From an uncultured Flavobacteriales bacterium (GTDB taxonomy: Bacteria > Bacteroidota > Bacteroidia > Palsa-965): a stretch of 19,261 nt of DNA. The notes under the pieces are model-generated. The model saw only the letters and a program-made list of their open reading frames with translations, made no database searches and was not told where the DNA came from. Shown in pieces: positions 1 to 19,128 of this stretch. The position numbers were made by a program, and so were the translations under genes. The stretch lies in contig CAMLEF010000042.1 in assembly GCA_946478675.1 (NCBI GenBank), positions 1 through 19,261 of the forward strand, read 5' to 3'. Position 1 is the stretch's first letter, and every line of letters begins with the position of its first letter.

Positions 1-3000
1 GCTTACGTGCCGGGCGCTAATTTTTCTTCAGCGCTGGTCGGCTGCATACAGGTGAATGTCGACGGCAACGATATTACCTGCGGCACGGTTTGCGTGAACG
101 GGATTTATACGCCTGAACAAATTGCGGCGCTGCTGGTGGCAGCTATCAACAGCTGCATTTCAACACCGGTCGATTTTACGGCAGCCATCAACCCGGCTGA
201 CCCATCGCAGTTCACCATTACTGCAGCGGCATCGGTTGGAAGCGCCGGTAATGACTATACGCTTGCGATCAATTTCCTGGGGACCAACTGGACCGGAAAC
301 GACGACGAATTTAAATTTACCGGTGGCGCTGAAGTGGATTGCCCTCCGCAGCAAAACTGTTTTTGCCAGCAACTTGAACAGCTTGAACAGTTCTATGATG
401 CCACCAGCCCGACTTCCGGTTTCTCCGGCGGCTATATCATCAATCACGATTTATATTCCGGTCTCACAGATTACATTTCTCAGACTCTAAATACCGTTTA
501 CGGCACAACGGTTTCTACCTCTGATGTCGATTCATGGATGGAGCGGTGCAGCATCCTGGGCACTCCTACCGATCCTTCAAAGCTGGAAGATGCACCCCTG
601 CCTCTCGCCCTCCGCTGCGATACCAATACTACGCCCTGCGCGGAAGACGCCTACGACATCACCGATTATTACGCCAACTATTTCTACCAGCAACAGGTAG
701 AACAGGCCACGCAGGATTTTATCCACGATTACATCGCGCATTGTTTCGGCGGAAACTTCATGGAAGATTTTAACGTGACACACGCCGACCGCGAATATCA
801 TTATACGCTTTATTACTACGACCAGGCCGGCAACCTCGTGCGCACGGTTCCGCCTGCAGGAGTAAAGCTGCTTAACGCAACAGACATCGGCCACGCAGAA
901 GATTATCGCAACGGCGTTCCGGGAAGCTCCCGCACCGTGCCCGATCACAACTCCACGGCCAACTCGATGGTGACGAATTACAAATACGATTCGTTTAACA
1001 ACCTCGTGGAATCGGCCACGCCCGACTCGAAAACATCGACGTTCTATTACGACAGGATCGGCCGCGTGGTCGCTTCGCAAAATGCAAAGCAGGCTGCCTT
1101 GTCCAATCATGTCTACAGCTATACCTTCTACGATCCGCAGGGGCGCATTTATGAAGTTGGTCAGGTGACGAGCTCCACGACGATTTCCGCTTCCGTGACC
1201 GCCACCATGAGCACGTTTACGACATGGGTCGGCGCGGGCACACGCTCGGAAGTGACGTCGACGTATTACGACCAGTCGCTCAACGGCACTGTAGCGGGTG
1301 AATTCTTTAACGGCCAGAACTACCTCCGCAAGCGCGTGACTTCCGTAACAATCGAGGATGTGTATGACGGCAACGCGAATACCTACGATCATGCGACGCA
1401 TTATTCGTACGACGTGCATGGCAATGTGAACGAAGTCATACAGGATTTCCCGCAGCTGGCGGATCTCGGGCAGCAGTACAAGCACATCGAATACGAGTAC
1501 GATCTCATCTCGGGCAACGTGAACCGCGTGATCTACCAGCGCGGATCGGCGGACGGGTATTACCATGCGTATTATTACGACGCCGACAACCGCATCACCA
1601 ACGTATATACCGCTTCGATGGACGCGCAGCAGATGACGCCGGGATGGAACAGCGGACGGCAGCTGTACGAGCAGGATGCTAAATATTTTTATTACCTGCA
1701 TGGGCCGCTCGCGAGAACGGAGATTGGCGACAAGACCGTGCAGGGAGAAGATTACGCGTATACCATCCAGGGATGGATCAAAGGCGTGAACAGCAACATC
1801 CTTGACCGCACGAAAGATCTCGGCAAAGACGGGCAGACCACCGGCTCGACCGCGTACAACACGCGCGCCGGCATGCACAGCAATATTGCCATCGATGCGT
1901 TCGGTTATACGCTGGGCTATTTCTGGAAATCTTCCGGCTCGTACGGAAAAGATTACGTGCCGATCAACAGCGCCGCACAATCACTTTACGGAGACGTGAC
2001 CGCGCTAAACGATCCGGCGGATACACTACACAACGGTAACATCAAGGACATGGCCACTGCGCTGATGGCGCCCAATGGAACGTCACTGCCCCAGCTGCTG
2101 CCGCTGATCGACAATCATTACCGGTATGATCAGCTGAACCGGATTGTGTCGTCGAATTCTTATATCGGTACCAGCACAACGGCGTATACCGGGCTGACGA
2201 CCACGGCGCACCAGTACGAGAATACGTTCACTTACGATGCCAACGGCAACATTAAGCGGCAGCTGCGAAATGGAAATTCCACCAGTGGTATAAGCATGGA
2301 TAGCCTGACGTATTATTATTGGAACAGCGCCCATACCTCCACGTATGCCATGAATACCGATGGTTCCGTTCCCGTGAATGCTACCAACCAGCTGGCCTAT
2401 GTGCGCGATAACGGAACAAGCGGAAATTATTCGGATGACCTCGAAACACAGCTGGCGGGCAACTATACTTATTATGCCAATGGAGAATTGAAATCCGATG
2501 CTTCCGAGGAGATCAACACGATTAACTGGAGCGTTTACGGAAAGATCAAATCCGTGCAGCGCAATTCAGGTTCTGTGAAAAAAGAGCTTAACTTTACTTA
2601 CGATGCCATGGGCCAGCGCGTGCTCAAAATTGCCAAAGAACGCGATGCTTCACTGGGCATCAAAACGCAGGATCACTGGACGTATACGTATTACGTGCGT
2701 GATGCGCAGGGAAATGTAATGGCAACCTACAACCGCACATTTACGGATAACGTTTCGCATACGCAGGTGACGGACAAGATGGAGCTGGCGGAATCGCATC
2801 TATATGGTTCTTCACGGATCGGTGTGAAAGACCGTTCGCAGAGTGGCGTGTATTCGGATGTCGTGTACAATTATAACGCCATCAATACCGATAAATCCTT
2901 CCATACGACGACGCAGGCTTCGACTACGCATCTCAATGACCCTGAGCTGGCGGCGCCTAAACGGAAGCTCGGGTATAAGATGTATGAGTTGTGCAATCAC

Positions 3001-4137
3001 CTGGGGAACGTGCTGGTGACGGTGAGCGATCGAAAGTTGATTCATGTGACATTGTCCGTGCTTGATTATTACATGCCGGATGTGCGAACGACGAGTGATT
3101 ATAGTGCGTTCGGTTCCCCAATGCCTGGCAGAAATTTTGTTCCCGCGGCAAAATACCGCTACTCGTTCAACGGCAAGGAAACCGACGAGGAAACCAGCAC
3201 GCAGGATTATGGAATGCGGATTTATAACCCGGCCTTGGGAAGATTCTTGTCGGTGGACCCGTTGACAAGAAAATATCCGATGCTTTCGCCGTATCAATTT
3301 GCAAGTAATAGACCGATTAATGCCATTGATTTAGATGGCTTGGAAGCAGCTTCGCCGGTAGCTGGAGCTGCAAAGTTTGTCAAAGCGATTCCAACCGCAA
3401 GCAGTGTAAAAAAATCGGCCGTTAATAGCACTACAGCCACTACTGCTGCGAAACCCAATTCTAACAGCACTTCATACTCTTGGAGTCCTTCTTCCTCAAC
3501 TGGAACCAGCGCAACTGTAGCAACTACCACACCAACTTATTCAGGAGATTGTTCAGGATGTAATGTAGTAACTTCAAGTGCCCCAATAATATTAACTGCG
3601 GAAGAAGTCAATATGGGCTTTGAAGAGCCTGCATACGCGCCCGGATCTATAGTGACCGAGGAACCTGCAATGCCCGCTGACGGCACACGATATGTTCGCT
3701 TTTATTACGACAGCGGTGATCCAGAAACGTCAACAAGTCCTTATAGCAGATGGTTTGCGAAGTATGATGATGTTAAAGATTTAACGCCTGCTCAAATTAA
3801 AGATAAATACTCATTGCCCAATACACCGAACCGAATGGTAGATGTAAATCCAGCGGGGCAAACAGCGCGCGAAGGTACTGCCGCGGCAAATAAATGGGGG
3901 AGTGGCGGAGGAACTCAATATCAATTCACAGAGGAAGCTCCGGCGGAGGTTTATGGTAGTCATTATACTATCGAAGGAGGGGCTCCTATAATGGAAGCCC
4001 AGCCAACCAACACATATCCTTCTCCACCAAGCTCAACCCAAGGCACCGGAACAGGAGGATTAACACCTGAGGAGCCAGGAATAAATCCTGGTGATGAACC
4101 AGAAGTGCCGGAATTCCCTGAAGTTCCACCGCTATAA
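1..4137 (+). CDS. RHS repeat protein with TNT-like C-terminal toxin module (5' partial)
   Basis: The frame is open from the first base, so the true start lies upstream; the GTG at 7 is only the first possible start codon inside the window. Residues from about 260 to 1040 (counted from position 7) carry many YD/RHS-type repeats such as YYYDQAGNLVRTV, FTYDANGNIKRQL and FTYDAMGQRVLKIA. These form the beta-cage that encloses a toxin in this family. The RHS core runs from about residue 1050 (YRYSFNGKETDEE) through GRFLSVDPLT to DLDGLE at 1110-1113. The last 263 residues are the variable part and are visibly more AT-rich than the cage. Around residues 1225-1307 they hold a module with KYSLPNTPNRMVDV and WGSGGGTQYQF, which resembles the glycine-rich end of TNT (NAD glycohydrolase) toxins; this family call is tentative. 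A Pro/Glu/Thr-rich tail follows. The small gene 13 nt downstream is the likely immunity gene. The export route is not visible. RHS identity is very secure; toxin chemistry is uncertain. Confidence 0.93.
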   Translation, partial: AYVPGANFSSALVGCIQVNVDGNDITCGTVCVNGIYTPEQIAALLVAAINSCISTPVDFTAAINPADPSQFTITAAASVGSAGNDYTLAINFLGTNWTGNDDEFKFTGGAEVDCPPQQNCFCQQLEQLEQFYDATSPTSGFSGGYIINHDLYSGLTDYISQTLNTVYGTTVSTSDVDSWMERCSILGTPTDPSKLEDAPLPLALRCDTNTTPCAEDAYDITDYYANYFYQQQVEQATQDFIHDYIAHCFGGNFMEDFNVTHADREYHYTLYYYDQAGNLVRTVPPAGVKLLNATDIGHAEDYRNGVPGSSRTVPDHNSTANSMVTNYKYDSFNNLVESATPDSKTSTFYYDRIGRVVASQNAKQAALSNHVYSYTFYDPQGRIYEVGQVTSSTTISASVTATMSTFTTWVGAGTRSEVTSTYYDQSLNGTVAGEFFNGQNYLRKRVTSVTIEDVYDGNANTYDHATHYSYDVHGNVNEVIQDFPQLADLGQQYKHIEYEYDLISGNVNRVIYQRGSADGYYHAYYYDADNRITNVYTASMDAQQMTPGWNSGRQLYEQDAKYFYYLHGPLARTEIGDKTVQGEDYAYTIQGWIKGVNSNILDRTKDLGKDGQTTGSTAYNTRAGMHSNIAIDAFGYTLGYFWKSSGSYGKDYVPINSAAQSLYGDVTALNDPADTLHNGNIKDMATALMAPNGTSLPQLLPLIDNHYRYDQLNRIVSSNSYIGTSTTAYTGLTTTAHQYENTFTYDANGNIKRQLRNGNSTSGISMDSLTYYYWNSAHTSTYAMNTDGSVPVNATNQLAYVRDNGTSGNYSDDLETQLAGNYTYYANGELKSDASEEINTINWSVYGKIKSVQRNSGSVKKELNFTYDAMGQRVLKIAKERDASLGIKTQDHWTYTYYVRDAQGNVMATYNRTFTDNVSHTQVTDKMELAESHLYGSSRIGVKDRSQSGVYSDVVYNYNAINTDKSFHTTTQASTTHLNDPELAAPKRKLGYKMYELCNHLGNVLVTVSDRKLIHVTLSVLDYYMPDVRTTSDYSAFGSPMPGRNFVPAAKYRYSFNGKETDEETSTQDYGMRIYNPALGRFLSVDPLTRKYPMLSPYQFASNRPINAIDLDGLEAASPVAGAAKFVKAIPTASSVKKSAVNSTTATTAAKPNSNSTSYSWSPSSSTGTSATVATTTPTYSGDCSGCNVVTSSAPIILTAEEVNMGFEEPAYAPGSIVTEEPAMPADGTRYVRFYYDSGDPETSTSPYSRWFAKYDDVKDLTPAQIKDKYSLPNTPNRMVDVNPAGQTAREGTAAANKWGSGGGTQYQFTEEAPAEVYGSHYTIEGGAPIMEAQPTNTYPSPPSSTQGTGTGGLTPEEPGINPGDEPEVPEFPEVPPL
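2593..3130 (+). repeat. RHS 3' block, copy A (duplicated at 4701-5238)
   Basis: This stretch of the first RHS gene recurs at a constant offset of 2108 bases with no insertion or deletion that I can find. The first 150 bases or so are nearly identical between copies; similarity falls after that but the reading frame is kept. The match begins at TTTACTTACGATGCCATG and ends just before the core motif YRYSFNGK, where the two copies switch to unrelated core and toxin sequence. It is the natural substrate for recombination exchanging RHS tips. Confidence 0.93.
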
Positions 4138-4150
4138 TTAAATTTACGTC

Positions 4151-4450
4151 ATGAGACAAGGGCTTCCATTTCCAATCAAAAAAGAAATCGTTGTTAACGG
4201 CAACAGAATTGCTTTATTAGATGTTCCCCCAAAAATTATTTACAACAGAAATGTTTGCTGTATTAATAACGCGGGAGAAATAATTTGGCAAATTGAAGAA
4301 CTAAGCTCGTATCCTGGCAACACGCAACGCTGCCCTTTCATTGACATCGCAGAAGGTCATGGTAAGTTGGTATTATTTAACTGGTGCGATCTACGTTTAG
4401 TTGTAGACCCAACCAATGGAAACATCATTAGAAAAGAAGAAATTAGATAA
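4151..4450 (+). CDS. Probable immunity protein to the TNT-like RHS toxin
   Basis: A 99-residue, soluble protein with no signal peptide or membrane helix, beginning MRQGLPFPIKKEIVVNGNRI. The ATG lies 13 nt after the RHS stop codon, the usual place for the cognate immunity gene of a polymorphic toxin. The pattern (LPFP, NRIALLDVPPKIIYNRNV, GEIIWQIEE, LFNWCDLRLVVDPTNGNIIRKE) looks like a small beta-rich fold seen in immunity-type proteins next to secreted toxins; I recognise the style from memory but cannot name the family. Lack of a signal peptide implies action in the cytoplasm, in keeping with a toxin attacking a cytosolic substrate such as NAD. The low GC matches the toxin module rather than the RHS cage, suggesting both were acquired together. 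Confidence 0.8.
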   Translation: MRQGLPFPIKKEIVVNGNRIALLDVPPKIIYNRNVCCINNAGEIIWQIEELSSYPGNTQRCPFIDIAEGHGKLVLFNWCDLRLVVDPTNGNIIRKEEIR

Positions 4451-4565: not shown

Positions 4566-4654
4566 CCGGGATTGCAGCGGAAAGCTCACAGCCGCAGCAG
4601 AGAATTCTTTGTGTGCTTCATTCTCCAGCGGCGAGGACTTGCAGCGAAAACCCG
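4566..4654. repeat. Intergenic scar element, copy 1
   Basis: This stretch lies between the first immunity gene and the duplicated RHS block. It begins CCGGGATTGCAGCGGAAAGC, contains CCGCAG, and ends GCGAGGACTTGCAGCGAAAA then CCCG. A related arrangement (CCGGGATTG, CGGAATGC, CCGCAG, CGAGGAGCT, GCGATAGCGAGAC) occurs at 7379-7438 after the second immunity gene. The similarity is patchy. It looks like a genomic intergenic repeat family bordering the toxin modules. The only possible start of the following open frame, a TTG at 4572, falls inside it, so that start is probably not genuine. Confidence 0.4.
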
Positions 4655-6320
4655 TAGTTTAATTGAAACTACAACTGCATCTGCTCCTAAAGACCTTACA
4701 TTTACTTACGATGCCATGAGGCAGCGCGTGCTCAAAATTGCCAAAGAACGCGATGCTTCACTGGGCATCAAAACACAGGATCACTGGACGTATACGTATT
4801 ACGTGCGTGATGCGATGGGAAATGTAATGGCAACCTACAACCGCACATTTGCCGACAACGGAGCTCACACGCAGGTGACGGATAAGATGGAGCTGGCGGA
4901 ATCGCATCTGTATGGGTCAATGCGCCTGGGTATTAAAGACCGTTCGCAGAGCGGTGTGTATACCGACGTGGTTTACAATTATACAGCCATCAATACGGAT
5001 AAGAGTTTCCATATTACGACTCTGGTGTCCACTATGCACCTGAATGATCCGGACCTCACTACGCCCAAGCGGAAACTGGGATATAAGATGTATGAGTTAA
5101 GCAATCACCTGAGGAATGTGCTAGTAACGGTGTCGGATCGGAAGCTGATTCATGTGACTGCGTCCGTACTTGACTACTACCTGGCGGATGTACGATCCAC
5201 GAGTGATTATTCTGCATTTGGTTCTCCGATGCCGGGAAGACAATTTTCGGCTGGGAACTATCGATATGGTATGAACGGTCAAGAACATGAGAACGAAATT
5301 TCTGCTGGCGTCTACGGCGCTGAGTTCTGGGAGTACGATAGCCGATTGGGGAGAAGATCGAATATTGATCCTCAATTTTTAATAGACCTTTCTCCCTATG
5401 CTACATTTGTGAATAATCCTATAAAAATGGTAGATATTTGGGGAGATGTACCAACGCCTGCAGAAGCCGCTGCAATAGCCGCTCATGTATATGGTGATCA
5501 ACCCGACCAGATACTTATAGGTGGATGGAAAGTCTCTACGCGTGACTTTGGACCTAACTTTGTTAAAGTTGATCCCATTACGGGATTTAGATCCCAAGTG
5601 TACGAAAGAACGGTTGGTTCGGTGACAGAATATGTATACGCATACGCCGGAACGAATGACTTAGTAGATGCTCAAACCGATTTTACCCAAGCGTTCGGCT
5701 GCTCAGATCAATATCGACAAGCAAAAATCAACTCGCAAATAATTAACAATGCAATGAATGGGCAGGATTTAACTTTTGTTGGACATTCATTGGGTGGGGG
5801 ATTAGCTGCAACAAGTGCTTATGTTACTGGCGGTACAGCTATAACTTTCAACGCTGCGGGAGTTAGTCCTGTCACTACCTATACGAACTCCAACGCTAAT
5901 ATTACTGCGTATAAGATGCTTGGCGACCCTCTAAATAATTGCCTCAACAGTACTATTGGGCCAAGCCTAGATGGAAACGTTGTTAATGTTGTGATACCTC
6001 TAAAGGATGGTAGTTGCGATAAGGGCGGGCACAGTATTGATTACTTTCTTGCCTTTTATAAAAACCCTTATTTTATGAAAAAGGACGAAGAACGCAAAGT
6101 AGAAGCAAGACCTATTTCCGGAATGGGATCGGCCACGAGCTGCCAGATGAGCCATGCTGGCGCTGAAGCCACCTATGCTGCACCTCAGATCAAATCTCCC
6201 CCTTCATATTCCAAACCAAACTTTTCCAATAGTACACCTACAATACCTTATAATCCAGGAGCAGTATATACATATTCTTGGCCAGGTCCATCTAACAATG
6301 CCTCAACAATTCAACAATAA
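4572..6320 (+). CDS. Displaced, 5'-truncated RHS tip with class-3-lipase-like toxin
   Basis: The frame opens after a stop at 4563-4565 and lacks any proper RHS start or N-terminal cage; the first 43 codons are junction sequence, and residues are numbered from the TTG at 4572. Residues 44 to about 223 repeat the RHS sequence of the upstream gene. The core then changes subtype: YRYGMNGQEHENE at 230, AEFWEYDSRLGRR, and VDIWGD ending at 292. The C-terminal toxin looks like a class 3 (alpha/beta-hydrolase) lipase. It has YAGTNDLVDAQTDF, the nucleophile elbow TFVGHSLGGG with Ser406, probable Asp452 in YKMLGDPLNN, and probable His487 in GGHSIDYFL. A Pro/Ser/Thr-rich tail follows. Membrane lipid is the expected target. 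It is probably a silent reserve tip that is expressed only after recombination into the full gene, though internal translation cannot be excluded. Its immunity gene begins 1 nt downstream. Confidence 0.88.
   Translation: MQRKAHSRSREFFVCFILQRRGLAAKTRSLIETTTASAPKDLTFTYDAMRQRVLKIAKERDASLGIKTQDHWTYTYYVRDAMGNVMATYNRTFADNGAHTQVTDKMELAESHLYGSMRLGIKDRSQSGVYTDVVYNYTAINTDKSFHITTLVSTMHLNDPDLTTPKRKLGYKMYELSNHLRNVLVTVSDRKLIHVTASVLDYYLADVRSTSDYSAFGSPMPGRQFSAGNYRYGMNGQEHENEISAGVYGAEFWEYDSRLGRRSNIDPQFLIDLSPYATFVNNPIKMVDIWGDVPTPAEAAAIAAHVYGDQPDQILIGGWKVSTRDFGPNFVKVDPITGFRSQVYERTVGSVTEYVYAYAGTNDLVDAQTDFTQAFGCSDQYRQAKINSQIINNAMNGQDLTFVGHSLGGGLAATSAYVTGGTAITFNAAGVSPVTTYTNSNANITAYKMLGDPLNNCLNSTIGPSLDGNVVNVVIPLKDGSCDKGGHSIDYFLAFYKNPYFMKKDEERKVEARPISGMGSATSCQMSHAGAEATYAAPQIKSPPSYSKPNFSNSTPTIPYNPGAVYTYSWPGPSNNASTIQQ
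4701..5238 (+). repeat. RHS 3' block, copy B (duplicate of 2593-3130)
   Basis: Second copy of the RHS segment in the upstream gene, at a fixed offset of 2108 bases and free of indels. Homology starts abruptly at 4701, directly after non-RHS junction sequence. It ends as the core changes to the NGQEHENE subtype. Near-identity at the 5' end and greater divergence towards the core suggest gene conversion or recent exchange at the left part. Confidence 0.93.
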
Positions 6321-6321
6321 T

Positions 6322-7233
6322 ATGAAATTCATATATAATGTTTTGGCTTTTGTGAGCCTTCTGGGGGGGTGCGATACCAATCAAATTAACGCCCCCCGTC
6401 AACCATCGTTTTGCGATAGCCTGATCAATAAACAAAATCTGAGAGCAAATGATTACCGTTTATTTCAAGGAACTCCCGTTTGCGACATTGCATTACAGCT
6501 TAGCGATGACGATACTGTGAGCGTTCGCGAAACTGTACAAAAAAACCACATTAACTTAAACTATCAGGAACCGCAATATGGAATGTCATTGCTTATGCAG
6601 GCTGTTTTATGCCGAAGGTATAAAAGTTGTGACATATTATTAAAACTGGGGGCCGATCCAAATCTAAAGGATTTTGCAAATGGTCGTTCCTCATTTATCT
6701 ATTGCTGTTATGGTGATGATCCTGACCTATCTTTTCTAAAGCTATTGATGAAATATGGAGGAAATATTAATGACACCACGTTAATGAAAACGGTTAATGG
6801 AAATGTAATCAATTCGCCTTTAATTATAGCTTGTTCCATCGGCGCATATGATAGTGTTGCGTTAGATAGGATAAAACTCTTAATTGATTCTGGCGGGTCT
6901 ATTAACTATGCCTCTAACATTCAGGGCTCGGCCTTTGCTGTATCCTTAACTAGTAACAACTTTATGATTGCTTCATATTTATTAGAGCGTGGAGCCGACT
7001 TCACTCAACCTGTTCTTATCCAAACAGACGGCACACCTCTATATCCTGTAGATATACTTAGAAAATCGATTCTACCATTGGATTCTAAAGAATATGAATA
7101 CAAAATGCAGATTGTAGACTTTCTTTTATCAAAAGACATCAATTATAGAAATACACCGATCCCCGCATATATATTGAATAAAATCAAAAAACAATATCCC
7201 AGCGATTGGAAAGATTTTGCTAGAAAATATTAA
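6322..7233 (+). CDS. Ankyrin-repeat lipoprotein, probable immunity to the RHS lipase
   Basis: A 303-residue protein; I chose the ATG at 6322 because it follows the lipase stop codon by one base and starts a lipoprotein signal peptide, MKFIYNVLAFVSLLGGC, with lipobox LGGC and lipidated Cys17. An in-frame extension back to 6154 would overlap the toxin and bury the signal. The mature protein has ankyrin-like repeats from about residue 86 to 240, including GMSLLMQAVLCRRY, CDILLKLGADPNLKD, LKLLMKYGGNINDT, DRIKLLIDSGGSINYA and ASYLLERGADF. No acidic lipoprotein surface-export signal is visible after Cys17, so it probably faces the periplasm. That is where a phospholipase toxin would act, and lipoprotein immunity partners are known for bacterial antibacterial phospholipases. 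The pairing here is inferred from position and compartment. Base composition is AT-rich like the toxin. Confidence 0.85.
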   Translation: MKFIYNVLAFVSLLGGCDTNQINAPRQPSFCDSLINKQNLRANDYRLFQGTPVCDIALQLSDDDTVSVRETVQKNHINLNYQEPQYGMSLLMQAVLCRRYKSCDILLKLGADPNLKDFANGRSSFIYCCYGDDPDLSFLKLLMKYGGNINDTTLMKTVNGNVINSPLIIACSIGAYDSVALDRIKLLIDSGGSINYASNIQGSAFAVSLTSNNFMIASYLLERGADFTQPVLIQTDGTPLYPVDILRKSILPLDSKEYEYKMQIVDFLLSKDINYRNTPIPAYILNKIKKQYPSDWKDFARKY

Positions 7234-8218: not shown

Positions 8219-8279
8219 GCGTTGAAAAAAGTAAACCTCGAAGGTTTCAAAAACCTTCGAGGTTTACTTTTTTCAACGC
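8219..8279. repeat. Perfect inverted repeat, 29-bp arms, 3-nt loop
   Basis: Bases 8219-8247 are the exact reverse complement of 8251-8279, separated only by CAA. The arms contain GTAAACCTCGAAGGTTT, with A6 and T6 runs near the outer ends. As RNA from either strand it would be a very stable hairpin. It could act as a bidirectional terminator, but its length and perfection also fit a REP-like or miniature mobile palindrome. Similar CTCGAAGGTTT palindromes occur between genes in other Bacteroidetes as far as I recall. Confidence 0.9.
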
Positions 8280-8339
8280 CTCCGGGGTGCCGCTGCAATC
8301 GAGGCTAGGAAGAGCCGTCTGGAGTTTCAATGCACCGCA

Positions 8340-8518
8340 TTTTTATTGCAGTTCATCAGGCTGAGTAGCGGAGTAAATTTTTATTGCAGCTCGCAAGGCA
8401 GACAGAGACGCACATTTTTTATTGCAGTTCGTCAGGCTGAGTAACGAAGTAAATTTTTATTGCAGTTCATCAGGCTGAGTAGCGGAGCGCATCGAAGCCT
8501 GACGAACTCCAATAAAAA
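8340..8518. repeat. Four 38-bp tandem repeats closed by an inverted partial copy
   Basis: Units begin TTTTTATTGCAG at 8340, 8378, 8416 and 8454, an exact 38-base period. Units 1, 3 and 4 share TTCRTCAGGCTGAGTARCGRAG; unit 2 is diverged in the middle. Bases 8496-8518 are the reverse complement of the first 23 bases of a unit with one or two mismatches, so the last unit folds on this copy with a 19-nt loop. The array lies downstream of the minus-strand protease gene and its terminator. There is no spacer-repeat alternation as in CRISPR. Confidence 0.88.
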
Positions 8519-8566: not shown

Positions 8567-9853
8567 TTAGTTGATGATCACCTTCCGCGTTACTTTCTCA
8601 TGCGCGTTGCGAACTTCAATGAAGTAAACGCCTTCTTTATTGCCGGTAAGATCAAGCGTCAGCTGGCCTTCGTTCAGCGCATCGAAATGCTGTGCGTAAA
8701 CGATCTCGCCGAGCACGTTGTAAACGCTGATGTCCGTGTTCTCCATCTGCAGCGGTCCGAAGCTCAGCGTAAACTCTCCGTGCGAAGGCGACGGCGCTAC
8801 GGTGAACACGCTCTTCAGCGTAAGGTCCGCAACACCAACCGGAGTACAAGCGATCGACGACATGATCGGCAAACGTCCGCCGTTCAGCGTCGCCCAGATG
8901 CGCGTCTTCTGACCGTTGGTGAAGAAATACATCGCGGCATCGTCCGTGTAATCCATGTAGTTCATCCACATCGTGCCGGGCGAAGTGCTCGTGCAGGCAT
9001 CCGTCTGAACGCTGCCCACAGCGAACGTGCCGTAGTGGCAATCGCACTGGTTCGGCGTATCCGCAACGTTATCGCTGCCGGAGCATTGTGAGCCGCCGTC
9101 ATTGCAAACGCCGTCCGCATTCGTATCGTCGCCCCAGATGTGGAAGAGGTTGAACCAGTGTCCCACTTCGTGCGTGGCGGTGCGGCCTTTGTTGTAAGGA
9201 GCAGCAGCGCCCGTTACGCCTACCGCGCTGAACAACAGCACCACGCCGTCTTTATTGGCAGGGCCGCCGGAGAACGTCGAATAGCCCAGCAGTCCGCCGC
9301 TGAGGTTGCACACCCAGATGTTCAGGTAGTTGTTGCGGTCCCACGCATCCGCGCCGCCGGTGGAAGCAAATTTCACCGGGTCGCCGCTCATGCCGAACGA
9401 CGTTACCGTGGTTTGCGTGCGCTCGATGCCGTCCGTCCAGTTGCCGGAAGGATCGCGTTTTGCCAGGCAGAACTCCACTTCGCAGTCGGCAGCGAGTCCC
9501 TGGAAAGCAGCCGGTACGTTGCCGATATCGGCGTTCATCTTGCGGTAATCTTTGTTGAGCACGTCGATCTGCTCGAGCAAACGTTGCGTGCTGATGTTCT
9601 GTGAAGCTGTTTTGTAAACGACGTGGAAAATAACAGGGATCGTAACGATCGCGCGGTTGGTGTAACCGGTCGGATGCGCCTGGAGGAATTGCTGGTAGTC
9701 CTGCTCGTTCTGGTTAAGAACGTTGGCCAGCGACGGATCCGCAGCGAGTTCCTGTTGTTTGTATTCGTAGCTGGCGCAGCGTTGAACATTTTGCCCGGAT
9801 GCAAATACCGGCGCAAGCAGCAATGCAAGGGCAGGGAGTAAAAGTTTCTTCAT
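8567..9853 (-). CDS. Secreted M43-type metalloprotease with T9SS sorting domain
   Basis: A 428-residue exported zinc protease of the PAPP-A/cytophagalysin type (MEROPS M43). The start gives a Sec signal peptide (MKKLLLPALALLLAPVFASG). The catalytic domain begins near VTIPVIFHVVYKT. It carries HEVGHWFNLFH with zinc ligands His228, His232 and His238 and catalytic Glu229. A Cys-rich loop (DDTNADGVCNDGG, CSGSDNVADTPNQCDC) and a Met-turn region WMNYMDYTDD follow. The last 80 residues or so, with YNVLGEIVYAQ and GVYFIEVRN and ending KVTRKVIIN, are a type A T9SS C-terminal sorting domain, so the protein should be secreted or surface-attached through the type IX system. It is the smallest of three tandem paralogues and closest to the 9966-11285 gene. 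The substrate is unknown. Confidence 0.95.
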   Translation of the reverse strand: MKKLLLPALALLLAPVFASGQNVQRCASYEYKQQELAADPSLANVLNQNEQDYQQFLQAHPTGYTNRAIVTIPVIFHVVYKTASQNISTQRLLEQIDVLNKDYRKMNADIGNVPAAFQGLAADCEVEFCLAKRDPSGNWTDGIERTQTTVTSFGMSGDPVKFASTGGADAWDRNNYLNIWVCNLSGGLLGYSTFSGGPANKDGVVLLFSAVGVTGAAAPYNKGRTATHEVGHWFNLFHIWGDDTNADGVCNDGGSQCSGSDNVADTPNQCDCHYGTFAVGSVQTDACTSTSPGTMWMNYMDYTDDAAMYFFTNGQKTRIWATLNGGRLPIMSSIACTPVGVADLTLKSVFTVAPSPSHGEFTLSFGPLQMENTDISVYNVLGEIVYAQHFDALNEGQLTLDLTGNKEGVYFIEVRNAHEKVTRKVIIN

Positions 9854-9880
9854 TGAAAATGCTGGTTAGGTAAGGTCTTA

Positions 9881-9911
9881 CGAAGATACGTTTTACGTCC
9901 CGCAATTCAAA
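9881..9911 (-). promoter_or_regulatory. Bacteroidetes-type promoter of the first M43 gene
   Basis: On the minus strand, TTTG (9908-9911) and TATCTTCG (9881-9888) are separated by exactly 19 nt, matching the Bacteroidetes sigma-ABfr consensus TTTG-N19-TAnnTTTG with one mismatch. The -7 box lies 27 nt before the ATG. It indicates the gene is transcribed on its own rather than only by read-through from its paralogue. Confidence 0.7.
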
Positions 9912-9913
9912 CG

Positions 9914-9946
9914 CAAAGCCGGGCAACTCCATGTCGCCCGGCTTTG
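9914..9946 (-). terminator. Hairpin between the first two M43 genes
   Basis: CAAAGCCGGGC (9914-9924) and GCCCGGCTTTG (9936-9946) form a perfect 11-bp stem with an 11-nt loop, 20 nt past the stop codon of the 9966-11285 gene. The downstream U tract on the minus strand is weak (CGTTTGAATT), so termination may be partial. It sits directly before the promoter of the next gene. Confidence 0.6.
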
Positions 9947-9965
9947 AAAAAAATGAATGCAACGC

Positions 9966-11285
9966 TTATTGATTCAGCAATACGCGTTCGGCTTTCAATG
10001 CATTTGCTGCGCGAACTTCAACAAAATAAACGCCGTTCGCTTCCTGCGAAAGATCGATGGCGAACGTGCCGCCGTTGCTGTTTTCCTGCGCGCGCGAATA
10101 CACGATTTCACCCAGCGCATTCGTCACCGTGATCTGCAGCTGCGACTGTGAAGCCAACGCAATTTCAAGGTTGAATTTTCCGGTCGACGGGTTCGGGAAA
10201 AGATCGATGGTAATGCCCGACGAAAGATTTTCCACGCCCGCCAGCTGGCATTTGTTCGAAGTCGTCAGCGCATTGTACGGCGCAGCATTGATCACGTTCG
10301 TCATGCGCGCCACCTGCCCGGTCGTGAACATGTACATGGAAACGTCATCCGTATAATCCATGTAGTTCATCCACATCGTGCCGGGCGAGCTGCTCGTGCA
10401 CGCATCCGTCTGCACGCTGCCCACCGCGAAAGCGCCGTAATGACAATCGCATTGGTTCGGCGTATCGGCCACCACGTCGCTGCCGGAACACTGGCCCGCG
10501 CCGTCATTGCAGGTGCCGTCCGCATTCGTGTCGTCGCCCCAGATGTGATAAAGATTGAAGCAGTGACCGACCTCGTGCGTCGTCGTGCGTCCGCGGTTGT
10601 ATTCCGGGTCGAGCGAGAACGTTCCGTACGACGTGTAATTGCTGCCGAAATAATAATAGCCGATCACCACGCCGAACGTCTGGCTCACATTCGAAGACGG
10701 AAATTCCGCATAGCCCAGCAGTCCGCCGCCGAGGTTGCACACCCAGATGTTGAAGTAATGCGCCGGGTCCCACGCATCGAGCCCGCCCTGGCTGTAATGC
10801 TTCACCTTGTCGTCGTCGATCCACGAAGTCGTCACCGTATTCTGCCGGCGTTCGATGCCGTCGGTGAAATTCCCGGACGGATCTTGTTTCGCTAAACAAA
10901 ACTGGATATTCGGATTGCTCACTGCTCCCTGGAAAGCCGCCGGCGTATTCGAGACGTCGCTGTTGGTGCCGGTGAAATCCTGGTTCAGCACGGCGATCTG
11001 CGAAAGGATCTGGTTGGTGGAAATATTCTGCGCCGTCGTGCCGTAAACGACGTGTACCACTACAGGGATCGTCACGGCCGACTGAACGGAATTCGCATTC
11101 GCATTCGCGAGGCGCGCCGTCATGTTCTGTTCGTACGCAGCACGTTCGGCAGCGCGTTCCGGCTGTTGCTGCTGCAGGTAAGCTTCATGCGTCAGCACGC
11201 CGCAGGTCCGCGGATGCTGCGACGGCGCGCCGAGCGACAACGCCGAAAAAGTAAGAGCGAGGATGGGGTAGAAGTATTTTTTCAT
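9966..11285 (-). CDS. Secreted M43-type metalloprotease with T9SS sorting domain (paralogue 2)
   Basis: A 439-residue paralogue of the 8567-9853 protein, very similar at DNA level through the catalytic core. It starts with a signal peptide (MKKYFYPILALTFSALSLGA). The pro-region holds a Gln/Glu/Arg-rich stretch (EAYLQQQQPERAAERAAYEQ). The zinc site is HEVGHCFNLYH with His237, His241, His247 and Glu238. The Cys-rich loop (DDTNADGTCNDGAGQCSG) and the Met-turn region WMNYMDYTDD are intact. The C-terminal 80 residues start near DLFPNPSTGKFNLEI and end AERVLLNQ, a standard T9SS type A sorting domain. It is expected to act outside the cell on proteins. It lies between its two paralogues in the same direction, with a terminator on each side. 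Confidence 0.95.
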   Translation of the reverse strand: MKKYFYPILALTFSALSLGAPSQHPRTCGVLTHEAYLQQQQPERAAERAAYEQNMTARLANANANSVQSAVTIPVVVHVVYGTTAQNISTNQILSQIAVLNQDFTGTNSDVSNTPAAFQGAVSNPNIQFCLAKQDPSGNFTDGIERRQNTVTTSWIDDDKVKHYSQGGLDAWDPAHYFNIWVCNLGGGLLGYAEFPSSNVSQTFGVVIGYYYFGSNYTSYGTFSLDPEYNRGRTTTHEVGHCFNLYHIWGDDTNADGTCNDGAGQCSGSDVVADTPNQCDCHYGAFAVGSVQTDACTSSSPGTMWMNYMDYTDDVSMYMFTTGQVARMTNVINAAPYNALTTSNKCQLAGVENLSSGITIDLFPNPSTGKFNLEIALASQSQLQITVTNALGEIVYSRAQENSNGGTFAIDLSQEANGVYFVEVRAANALKAERVLLNQ

Positions 11286-11303
11286 AAAGAGGTTCTTGTC
11301 TAA

Positions 11304-11311
11304 CGAAGGTA
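11304..11311 (-). promoter_or_regulatory. Probable -7 element of M43 paralogue 2
   Basis: TACCTTCG on the minus strand matches TAnnTTTG with one mismatch, the same variant (TAnnTTCG) as in the neighbouring paralogue. It lies 18 nt before the ATG. No clear TTTG is seen 19 nt upstream, where the T tract of the preceding terminator lies, so this is less certain than the promoter at 9881-9911. Confidence 0.45.
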
Positions 11312-11326
11312 CAACAACGCCGGTGT

Positions 11327-11362
11327 AAAAAAGAAAGCCCCGCCTCGGGAGGCAGGGCTTTC
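11327..11362 (-). terminator. Strong terminator of the third M43 gene
   Basis: On the minus strand, GAAAGCCCTGCCTC pairs with GAGGCGGGGCTTTC around a short loop, followed by six U residues. It starts 17 nt past the stop codon of the 11379-13655 gene, so that gene should not be co-transcribed with the next paralogue. Confidence 0.88.
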
Positions 11363-11378
11363 ACCGAAAAAGATCCGG

Positions 11379-13655
11379 TTATCGGTTGATGACGATACGC
11401 TGTACCGTTTTCTCTTCGCCGGCGGTGACTTCTACGAAGTAAACACCGTTGGGCTGGGAAGAAAGGTCGAGCGAGTACTGTCCGCCGTAGGTGTTGCCTT
11501 CAGCAAACTGCATCACGGTCTGGCCGATCGCGTTCGTTACTTTGACGTTCAGGTTTTCCTGGCTGTTGAGCGCAACGTTCAGGTTGAACAGGCCGGTTGT
11601 CGACGGGTTCGGGAACAGGTTCACGCTGCTGGAAAGCTGCATCGACTGCACATCGGTCGTGTTGGTGATGTTGATGTCGTCGAGGTAGAGATCGTCTTCG
11701 TAATCGGAGATGTTGCGGAACTTCACGTAAAGCGCGTTCGCCGACTGGTACGGGAGCAGCGATACGGTTTCGAGGCGCCACTGGGCAGCGGTCGGAACCC
11801 ATGCTGCAGAGTTGCTCGAAAGCGGGGTTGCCGTCTGGAGGTTAGAGCCCCATTTCTTGTAAACCGTCGTCCACGTCGTGCCGCAGTCGGTAGAGACGAG
11901 CACTTCGAGCGTATCAGAATACTGGTACGGAACCGTCCAGTAGGTGTACGCCACCTGGAAGGTCATCACCGGGTTGGAAATCATGGAAACGTTTACCGGG
12001 GAGGTGACCATTTCATCGCGCTGGCCATTGCCGCCCTGGTAGCCCCAGTTGTCCATGCGTGCGCAGGCAACACCCGTTTTTGCGCAGGTCGTCGTGCGGG
12101 CCCAGGTCGTAGCGCCGTCCGGGTTGTTGAGCGTCCAGCCGGTCGGAACGAACGTGCCGCCTTCAAAGCCTTCGAAGAACGGCGGGTTGGAGCCGGCCGA
12201 TACGCAGGTGAAGTTGGATGTTTGCTGGTCGTTCGCTGCGTTGGCGTCAGACGTGCTGTTCGGGTTGCTGGTGTAGCAGGTGAAGGTGTGCGACGCTGCC
12301 GTAGTGGTCATGCTCGAAAGCGTAACCGTTGCCGTATTGCCCGAGGTGATCGTGCCCGACCAGCTGTAGGTCTGCACCGCGTTGTTGTCGATCTTGTAGT
12401 TGATCGTGCAGGAAGTCAGCGTGGTGGCGCCGAAGTTTTTCAGCGTTACAACCGGCGTGAAAGACGTGCCGCAGATCGTGCCGTTCGGCGTAGTGATCGT
12501 CGGAATGCCGGCGTCGGTACCGACCGCAACCGGCGACTGGCAACCGTTGGAGGTTTGCAGCGCGTTGTACGGAGAAGTGTTCAGGACCGCGAGCATGCGC
12601 GTCTTCTGGCCGTTCGTGAAAAGGTTCAGGCAGTTGTCATACGAGTAGTCCATGTAGTTCTCGAACATGATGCCGGGGTTCGTTGTCGCGCAGGCATCGG
12701 TGTGCGGGTAAGTGTAGCAGGTCGTCGTGGCGTCGGCCTGGTTCGGCGTGTCGGAGCACTGGTCGGAACCGCTGCAGGAGCCGCCGTCGTCACCCCAGAT
12801 GTGATAGAGGTTGAAGCAGTGCGAGAACTCGTGCGTGGTGGTGCGGCCGCGGTCGTACGGAGACTGTACTGCCGAGAACGTGCCATACGACGTGTAGTTG
12901 GAACCAAACGCGGAGTAGAGAATAACTACGCCCATCGTCTGGCTTGCGCTGGCCGTCGGGAACTCACCGTAGCCGAGCAGGCCGGAACCGAGGTTGCACA
13001 CCCAGATGTTCAGGTAGCGCGTCGGGTCCCATGCGTTGGCGCCGCCGGTGTTGGCGTGCTTCACGCCGTCGTTCGAAGAGAAAGAAGTAACCGTGGTCGA
13101 CGTGCGCTCGATGCCGTTCGTCACGTTGCCGTTCGGATCCTGCTGCGCAAGGCAGAACTGGATCGTCGTGTTGGCAGCCTGCGACCAATGCGTGTTCGCA
13201 TCCGAATTGGTGCGGCCGAAGTCTTCGTTCAACACCTGGATCTGCGAGAACACCTGGTTGTCCGGGATGTTTTGCGCAGCGGTTTTGTAAACGACGTGAA
13301 CGACTACCGGCAGCGTGATGACCGACTGCGTGGTTTCGAGCTGGTTCTTGTGAGCGGCGATGTAAGCCTGGATCTGCTGCTCGTACGCGTTACGGTCGGC
13401 AGCATAATTCGGGTTCTCGTTTACCAGCGTGTTGTAACGCTGTGCGTTCTGGTTGTCACGGTCAGTCTGCGTGGTCGCGTCCATGTTGAAACGGATCATC
13501 GATTTGCCGCTGACGTCATTCGGCTGGTTGGCGTTGATGTCCGTCAAGGCTGCTCCCGACGTGGTACCGGGAATGATTTTGTTCTTCGCAGTCTGAGCAA
13601 AAGCAGCAGAGAACAGGACGCACAAGGCCAATGCAGAGAATAATTTCTTCTTCAT
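11379..13655 (-). CDS. Large secreted M43-type metalloprotease with Ig-like, MAM-like and T9SS domains
   Basis: A 758-residue paralogue of the two downstream proteases with extra domains. It has a signal peptide (MKKKLFSALALCVLFSAAFA), a pro-region of about 95 residues, and a catalytic domain from VITLPVVVHVVYKT. The zinc site is HEFSHCFNLYH (His275, His279, His285, Glu276), with Phe-Ser replacing the Val-Gly of its paralogues. The Cys-rich loop is shorter and the Met-turn reads FENYMDYSYD. After it come an Ig-like or CARDB-like segment (TPVVTLKNFGATTLTSCTIN) and a MAM/choice-of-anchor-like jelly roll (FFEGFEGGTFVPTGWTLNN to LYLDDINI). The last 78 residues from NLFPNPSTTGLFNLNV to VQRIVINR are a T9SS sorting domain. 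The added beta domains probably bind substrate or surface. It is the first gene of the minus-strand cluster; I could not define its promoter. Confidence 0.95.
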   Translation of the reverse strand: MKKKLFSALALCVLFSAAFAQTAKNKIIPGTTSGAALTDINANQPNDVSGKSMIRFNMDATTQTDRDNQNAQRYNTLVNENPNYAADRNAYEQQIQAYIAAHKNQLETTQSVITLPVVVHVVYKTAAQNIPDNQVFSQIQVLNEDFGRTNSDANTHWSQAANTTIQFCLAQQDPNGNVTNGIERTSTTVTSFSSNDGVKHANTGGANAWDPTRYLNIWVCNLGSGLLGYGEFPTASASQTMGVVILYSAFGSNYTSYGTFSAVQSPYDRGRTTTHEFSHCFNLYHIWGDDGGSCSGSDQCSDTPNQADATTTCYTYPHTDACATTNPGIMFENYMDYSYDNCLNLFTNGQKTRMLAVLNTSPYNALQTSNGCQSPVAVGTDAGIPTITTPNGTICGTSFTPVVTLKNFGATTLTSCTINYKIDNNAVQTYSWSGTITSGNTATVTLSSMTTTAASHTFTCYTSNPNSTSDANAANDQQTSNFTCVSAGSNPPFFEGFEGGTFVPTGWTLNNPDGATTWARTTTCAKTGVACARMDNWGYQGGNGQRDEMVTSPVNVSMISNPVMTFQVAYTYWTVPYQYSDTLEVLVSTDCGTTWTTVYKKWGSNLQTATPLSSNSAAWVPTAAQWRLETVSLLPYQSANALYVKFRNISDYEDDLYLDDINITNTTDVQSMQLSSSVNLFPNPSTTGLFNLNVALNSQENLNVKVTNAIGQTVMQFAEGNTYGGQYSLDLSSQPNGVYFVEVTAGEEKTVQRIVINR

Positions 13656-15739: not shown

Positions 15740-15908
15740 ACGCAACTCCGCAACTCCGCACCCTCGCACCCCGCAACTCCGCACCCCGCAACTCCGCACC
15801 CCGCAACTCCGCACCCTCGCACCCCCGCAACTCCGCACCCCCGCAACTCCGCAACCCGCAACTTGCAACCCGCAACTCGTAACCTGCAACTCGCAACTCC
15901 GCAGCTCC
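15740..15908. repeat. CGCAAC-rich tract, about 15-bp period
   Basis: About 170 bases built from GCAACTCCGCACCCC-like units of around 15 bp, each made of two 7-8-bp halves starting GCAAC or GCACC, decaying to GCAACTTGCAACCC and GCAACTCGTAACCT at the right end. It is strongly strand-biased in composition (few G). Related sequence on the opposite strand lies at 15567-15600 and another block at 18968-19128. It is intergenic, directly upstream of the promoter of the 795-residue gene. Confidence 0.88.
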
Positions 15909-18967: not shown

Positions 18968-19128
18968 TCCGCGTTGCGTTGTTTCGTGTTTCGGGTGAAT
19001 TGTTATTTCCGGTGAAAATCTATTCATCGTCCGCACTTTCTCACGCATCTTGTTTTTATGAACCCGCAACCCGAATCACGCAACCCGTAACATCGCAACC
19101 CGCAACACCGCACCTCCGCAACTTCCCC
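18968..19128. repeat. Second CGCAAC/GTTTCGGG repeat zone
   Basis: The left part (GCGTTGCGTTGTTTCGTGTT, TCGGGTG) and the right part (CCCGCAACCCGAATCACGCA, then ACCCGTAACATCGCAACCCG) are near reverse complements of each other and belong to the same low-complexity family as 15567-15600 and 15740-15908. It fills the space between two minus-strand genes. No gene or RNA is seen. Confidence 0.7.

Follow-up and report, generated by a model that had tools for sequence, protein, structure and literature searches.

The window analysed here, 19,261 nt of an uncultured Flavobacteriales bacterium (contig CAMLEF010000042.1, assembly GCA_946478675.1), contains two adjacent genes on the plus strand, a lipase carried on an RHS core and an ankyrin-repeat lipoprotein, which we propose to be a toxin and its immunity protein. 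The lipase lies in an open reading frame (ORF) of 582 aa at 4572..6320, for which the TTG start is nominal. As the earlier, sequence-only reading had stated, its stop codon (6318-6320) is followed after a single base by the ATG (6322) of the ankyrin gene (6322..7233, 303 aa). Upstream, an RHS protein with a C-terminal tip of its own occupies positions 1..4137 of the same strand (1378 open codons, 5' end outside the window; Rhs_assc_core at 65.7 bits). RHS homology in the lipase ORF begins at ~4689, and a core segment at 4689..5260 (plus strand) is a repeat of the part of the upstream RHS gene that starts at nt 2581. This is seen in a direct repeat of 300 nt with 88% identity (2581-2880 and 4689-4988) and in a DNA alignment which weakens past ~5260, where the lipase then diverges. 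The family model TIGR03696 (Rhs_assc_core) matched the lipase ORF just under its cut-off (E 7e-7, 29.7 bits versus 32.5). The order of RHS core, variable C-terminal domain and partner gene is that of an RHS polymorphic toxin tip. The sequence-only reading had spoken of an RHS-fused lipase; the RHS core in front of the lipase bears this out, but it belongs to a second, truncated RHS tip and not to a full-length RHS gene. In layout, the window copy corresponds to a displaced RHS tip accompanied by a proposed immunity gene, and an export part is missing from it. It resembles the displaced (orphan) tip-immunity modules of other RHS polymorphic toxins in having a second tip with a duplicated core segment 3' of the RHS gene and an immunity-like gene after it, and differs from them in that its RHS is from Bacteroidota (three complete relatives are of the DUF6443 type) and its tip a lipase.

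The stretch 5397..6320 (plus strand) of the lipase tip was modelled with AlphaFold2. The fold starts at ~5440 and ends in a low-confidence tail of 73 residues from ~6099; mean predicted local distance difference test (pLDDT) is 73.6, with 132 residues at 90 or above and residues 235-307 all but one below 50. Both by fold and by profile, the top match in the PDB was 9cys_A, the lipase Tle ("Tle6") of Enterobacter cloacae, aligned over its residues 203-472, while fungal lipases and plant EDS1/PAD4 ranked below it in the fold comparison. These comparisons make the class-3 lipase fold of the tip clear, although Pfam Lipase_3 (PF01764), proposed earlier as a check, scored slightly below its cut-off of 22 bits (21.2 bits, E 3e-4). 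The NCBIfam model SA1320 fell far short of its cut-off (27.5 bits, 230 required) and was discarded. The search for relatives yielded 282 homologous proteins; PF26363, which is pre-annotated on the listed ones, gave no match in the Pfam search of P0002 or P0006. The catalytic residues that had been picked out from the sequence form a conserved triad: Ser406 in the motif GHSLGGG (aa 404-410; 5787..5789), Asp452 (5925..5927) and His487 (6030..6032), all on the plus strand, align with Ser341, Glu393 and His448 of Tle, the last two by hand counting (Tle numbering from the accessible part of PMC11470151). Among 47 aligned lipases, the window included, the Ser and the His are present in all 47, and the acid is Asp in 31, Glu in 14 and another residue in 2.

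The ankyrin protein (Ank_2, E 7.3e-14) was modelled as a helical solenoid with a mean pLDDT of 92.3 and a predicted template modelling score of 0.85. Its N-terminus, MKFIYNVLAFVSLLGGC, reads by eye as a lipoprotein signal with a lipobox (6322..6372, plus strand), Cys17 being encoded at 6370-6372. Surface export of Bacteroidota lipoproteins depends on an acidic signal. The residues at +2 to +6 after Cys17 are DTNQI with a single acidic residue, in agreement with the earlier statement that such a signal is absent. Across the family, a script found a lipobox-like signal in 39 of the 53 ankyrin partners described below (looser version of the rules, used here; strict version 29 of 53), and each of the 39 has at most two acidic residues at +2 to +6, counted from the later Cys in L002, L029, L030, L033 and L079, which have two candidates. 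Inspection of the other 14 by eye revealed a hydrophobic N-terminus in nine and neither feature in five. The NCBIfam name Dot/Icm AnkH was far under its cut-off (20.2 bits versus 600) and was not adopted.

To follow the pair across public genomes we used the best 80 of at least 442 lipase relatives. A sequence search with the ankyrin protein found 13 proteins, and the seven at E <=4.8e-19 were combined with the window protein in a profile, A2. An A2 ankyrin ORF is the next gene in 53 of the 80 lipase loci (E 1.6e-130 to 1.3e-5). The distances between lipases and those between their ankyrins correlate strongly (Mantel test, r 0.81 over 49 pairs, none of 5000 permutations as high; for the 25 closest pairs r 0.71, again 0 of 5000). 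The test took 49 of 54 pairs, leaving out four near-copies and L058, in which the ankyrin is split. Shared descent of both genes is sufficient to explain the correlation, as is to be expected of a stable module. In a quick-type lipase tree the window lipase falls together with four lipases that have ankyrin partners (support 82, unstarred).

For the reverse check, 395 evenly drawn Bacteroidota genomes were searched with a lipase threshold of E 1e-20; since in many genomes only part of the first-look candidates was scored (such as six of nine), misses are possible. The lipase was found in five genomes (seed included), each time with the ankyrin gene next to it, four at E 1e-20 or better and that of G066 at 4e-14. 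Six genomes contained the ankyrin, four with it adjoining a lipase and two without a lipase. The co-occurrence proposed earlier as a check thus holds by genome (four of six) but less well by gene, where the ankyrin adjoins a lipase in four of eight cases and one of the other four is degenerate. With the seed left out, the overlap of lipase and ankyrin genomes has P 3.9e-6. The pairing is not a property of class-3 lipases in general, an idea we rejected after searching 274 genomes of the class of Photorhabdus: among 16 weaker lipase matches in 12 genomes, an A5 ankyrin adjoins only the seed's own locus, although for three of the 16 (L115, L119, L120) the short stretch available contains no ORF after the lipase. 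The 211-aa product of the gene next to the lipase in L110 looks ankyrin-like by eye and is without an A5 match. L101 has two tandem ankyrin genes of the family and no lipase nearby, an immunity-only locus; in L026 the lipase frame is split, its C-terminal part sharing the reading frame used by the ankyrin ORF; three weak ankyrin loci in viral contigs were not used.

The closest known system is that of E. cloacae, in which Tle was solved in complex with its immunity protein Tli, an ankyrin lipoprotein (PDB 7UBZ, 9CYS). The literature on it names Slp of Serratia marcescens as a homologue. Common to Tle6-Tli and the window are the homologous lipase domain, the aligned Ser/acid/His triad and the adjacent ankyrin-repeat lipoprotein partner; the likeness to Tli is one of adjacency, ankyrin fold and lipoprotein signal, not of sequence comparison with Tli itself. 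The systems differ in that Tle is an effector of the type VI secretion system (T6SS), while the lipase here forms the tip behind an RHS core, and in the triad acid, which is Glu in Tle and Asp here. Furthermore, neither the Arg180 helix nor Lys461 of Tle is clearly matched in the window pair (Arg180 and Lys461 being the sites of a methylglyoxal crosslink), and a start for a cytosolic isoform just past the signal is not seen. As far as the evidence goes, the pair appears to work like Tle6-Tli, with a lipase of the same family on another carrier, and may be regarded as a variant of it. The solved precedent makes the arrangement less distinctive than the sequence-only reading had supposed. More distant parallels are the Tle1-Tle5 effectors, likewise antibacterial phospholipases with cognate immunity, all five of which exclude E. 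cloacae Tle according to the accessible part of PMC11470151, and the Imm-Ank proteins, in which ankyrin repeats also serve as an immunity module of polymorphic toxins; the available portion of Zhang et al. 2012 (PMC3482391) lists Imm-ank beside toxins of the nuclease and deaminase kinds, without a lipase among them. In a partial literature collection searched by titles and abstracts, the matches listed included none on a Bacteroidota RHS-lipase that has an ankyrin protein for immunity, and the accessible parts of PMC12994826 and PMC7073777 mention neither ankyrin nor lipase and contain nothing on the pair.

Based on the adjacency, the co-divergence, the conserved triad and the similarity to a lipase whose structure was determined together with that of its ankyrin lipoprotein inhibitor, which together support the toxin-immunity pairing suggested earlier, we consider it likely that the locus is a polymorphic-toxin module consisting of an RHS-carried, Tle6-like putative phospholipase tip and a dedicated, envelope-anchored ankyrin immunity protein. 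Several observations speak against this interpretation. An A2 ankyrin is lacking in 27 of the 80 loci. Conversely, ankyrin genes occur without a lipase (two in tandem in G079, one in G170 and an extra degenerate copy in G149). The 395-genome sample is not independent of the 80 loci, as at least two of its genomes, G019 and G149, look like those of L026 and L015, and the proteins of L001 and L004 sat in the query alignments, so that their matches are partly by construction. The five ankyrin partners without any signal are all from Proteobacteria. By model and profile the ankyrin protein matches ankyrin solenoids at large, and Tli is absent among the matches listed, which generic ankyrins fill; this is no evidence against kinship. 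Finally, a good start codon is missing near the point where the homology of the window ORF begins, and the lipase copy may thus be silent.

The 27 loci without an A2 ankyrin were sorted by eye. Twelve (L028, L034, L036, L040, L042, L045, L049, L050, L053, L056, L060, L061) have another exported type of partner with a common short N-terminal motif ending in DT. Five (L025, L027, L035, L037, L044) have small proteins of ~140 aa with multiple transmembrane segments, nine have something else, and in L006 there is no ORF before the contig end. Pfam searches with eight of these partners, including four of the exported and two of the transmembrane type, gave no convincing name. The partner types cluster in the lipase tree, where they need 11 changes compared with 24.7 for shuffled labels (none of 200 shuffles as low), a result to which near-copies contribute.

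The lack of a credible start at the beginning of the tip would also be explained if the locus were a decaying remnant, with the displaced RHS tip and the immunity gene as scars of which neither is expressed. The length of the tip (307 residues compared with 193-300 for the same stretch in the 80 loci, owing to the low-confidence tail) and the broken relative L026 point in the same direction. Nevertheless, we think this unlikely, because the lipase frame is open with an intact triad, the ankyrin gene is intact with its signal, and the co-divergence means that the pair is maintained in the family. In enterobacterial RHS systems, displaced tips become active after recombination. It is hardly credible that the lipase is secreted simply for digestion and has the ankyrin gene next to it by chance, even though three peptidases tagged for the type IX secretion system (T9SS) lie downstream. 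The adjacency in 53 of 80 loci and in all five sampled lipase genomes, the RHS or VgrG carriers, and the broader class-3 lipases of the Photorhabdus class, which are not followed by such ankyrins, contradict this view, and a chance neighbourhood was rejected on adjacency, genome sample and co-divergence.

A different reading of the same module takes the ankyrin lipoprotein mainly as a protein that helps the lipase to fold or mature and only secondarily as an inhibitor, in analogy to E. cloacae, where activation of Tle needs cytosolic Tli (accessible parts of PMC11470151 and of the commentary PMC10294624). We regard this as improbable. A cytosolic form is not obvious, since codons 12-65 of the ankyrin gene contain no in-frame ATG, GTG or TTG (the three start codons scanned) and the GTG at codon 66 would cut into the repeats. 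The ungapped position of Lys461 (His +13) is Tyr in the window and Lys in only five of the 47 lipases, 11 of which end earlier. Between +11 and +15 from the triad His, 24 of 47 lipases have a Lys or Arg, making a crosslink site somewhere near Lys461 possible for part of the family; the window has neither residue there. Arg180 of Tle lies ahead of the aligned part (203-472), at a place where the window has the RHS core, outside the modelled stretch.

In the toxin-immunity interpretation which we prefer, a lipase carried on a full RHS protein would be exported by the Sec pathway, as signal peptides in relatives suggest, and reach the envelope of a neighbouring cell, where it would hydrolyse membrane phospholipids via its Ser-Asp-His triad. 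Going by its lipobox and by the absence of a run of acidic residues behind the Cys, the ankyrin lipoprotein would sit on the periplasmic face of a membrane. There it could cup the lipase and probably keep the lid helix off the lipid, as Tli does with Tle; judged by the solved homologous complex, this lid-holding mode is plausible for the window pair. The RHS-core segment, a duplicate of part of the upstream gene, could replace the tip of that gene by recombination, and the ankyrin gene may protect the cell meanwhile.

The same lipase-ankyrin pair rides two carriers. In Bacteroidota these are Sec-type RHS proteins: the complete RHS-lipases L002, L021 and L030 have Sec-type signals (by eye) and carry DUF6443, and VgrG and PAAR domains were not found in them. 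In Azospirillum and Nitrospirillum the carrier is the T6SS protein VgrG, to which the lipase is fused in L052 and L066, with the ankyrin gene next. The carrier in the window is an RHS core whose N-terminus falls outside it. On the RHS route the producer's own lipase would have to cross its own periplasm. It is possible, although we hold it doubtful, that one module serves these two unrelated routes, with the ankyrin lipoprotein as a periplasmic escort in cis which holds the lipase closed up to its release and might also fold it. If so, glycation crosslink and cytosolic isoform would not be needed, and the ankyrin gene would be essential in producers, unlike the dispensable periplasmic immunity genes of T6SS, inactivation of which is costless when cells are not attacked (according to the available part of PMC10294624).

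Elsewhere in the window, a 99-aa ORF after the first RHS gene (4151..4450, plus strand) is by its position a candidate partner of that tip; searches of Pfam and NCBIfam at E 0.1 matched nothing in it. On the minus strand, 8567-13655 encodes three metallopeptidases of the M43 (pappalysin) type in tandem, all of which carry a T9SS sorting tail, a feature that gives the window a Bacteroidota look. A long hairpin-like inverted repeat was seen by eye at 8221-8277, a 38-bp tandem repeat with 3.8 copies lies at 8339-8484, and short tandem arrays with CGCAACTC/CCGCAACCCG-like units at 15741-15908 and 19061-19122. The window gave no Rfam, tRNA or plasmid match, and scans for promoters and terminators yielded chance level only.

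The pair is of interest for several reasons. The delivery of RHS proteins in Bacteroidota is poorly understood, and here one lipase family is found with several unrelated partner types. Further, the pair is a natural comparison for the question of what makes Tle6 dependent on its immunity protein to become active. Last, our observations suggest that control of class-3 lipases by ankyrin lipoproteins occurs across Bacteroidota as an RHS-borne module, rather than being an oddity of the enterobacterial T6SS.
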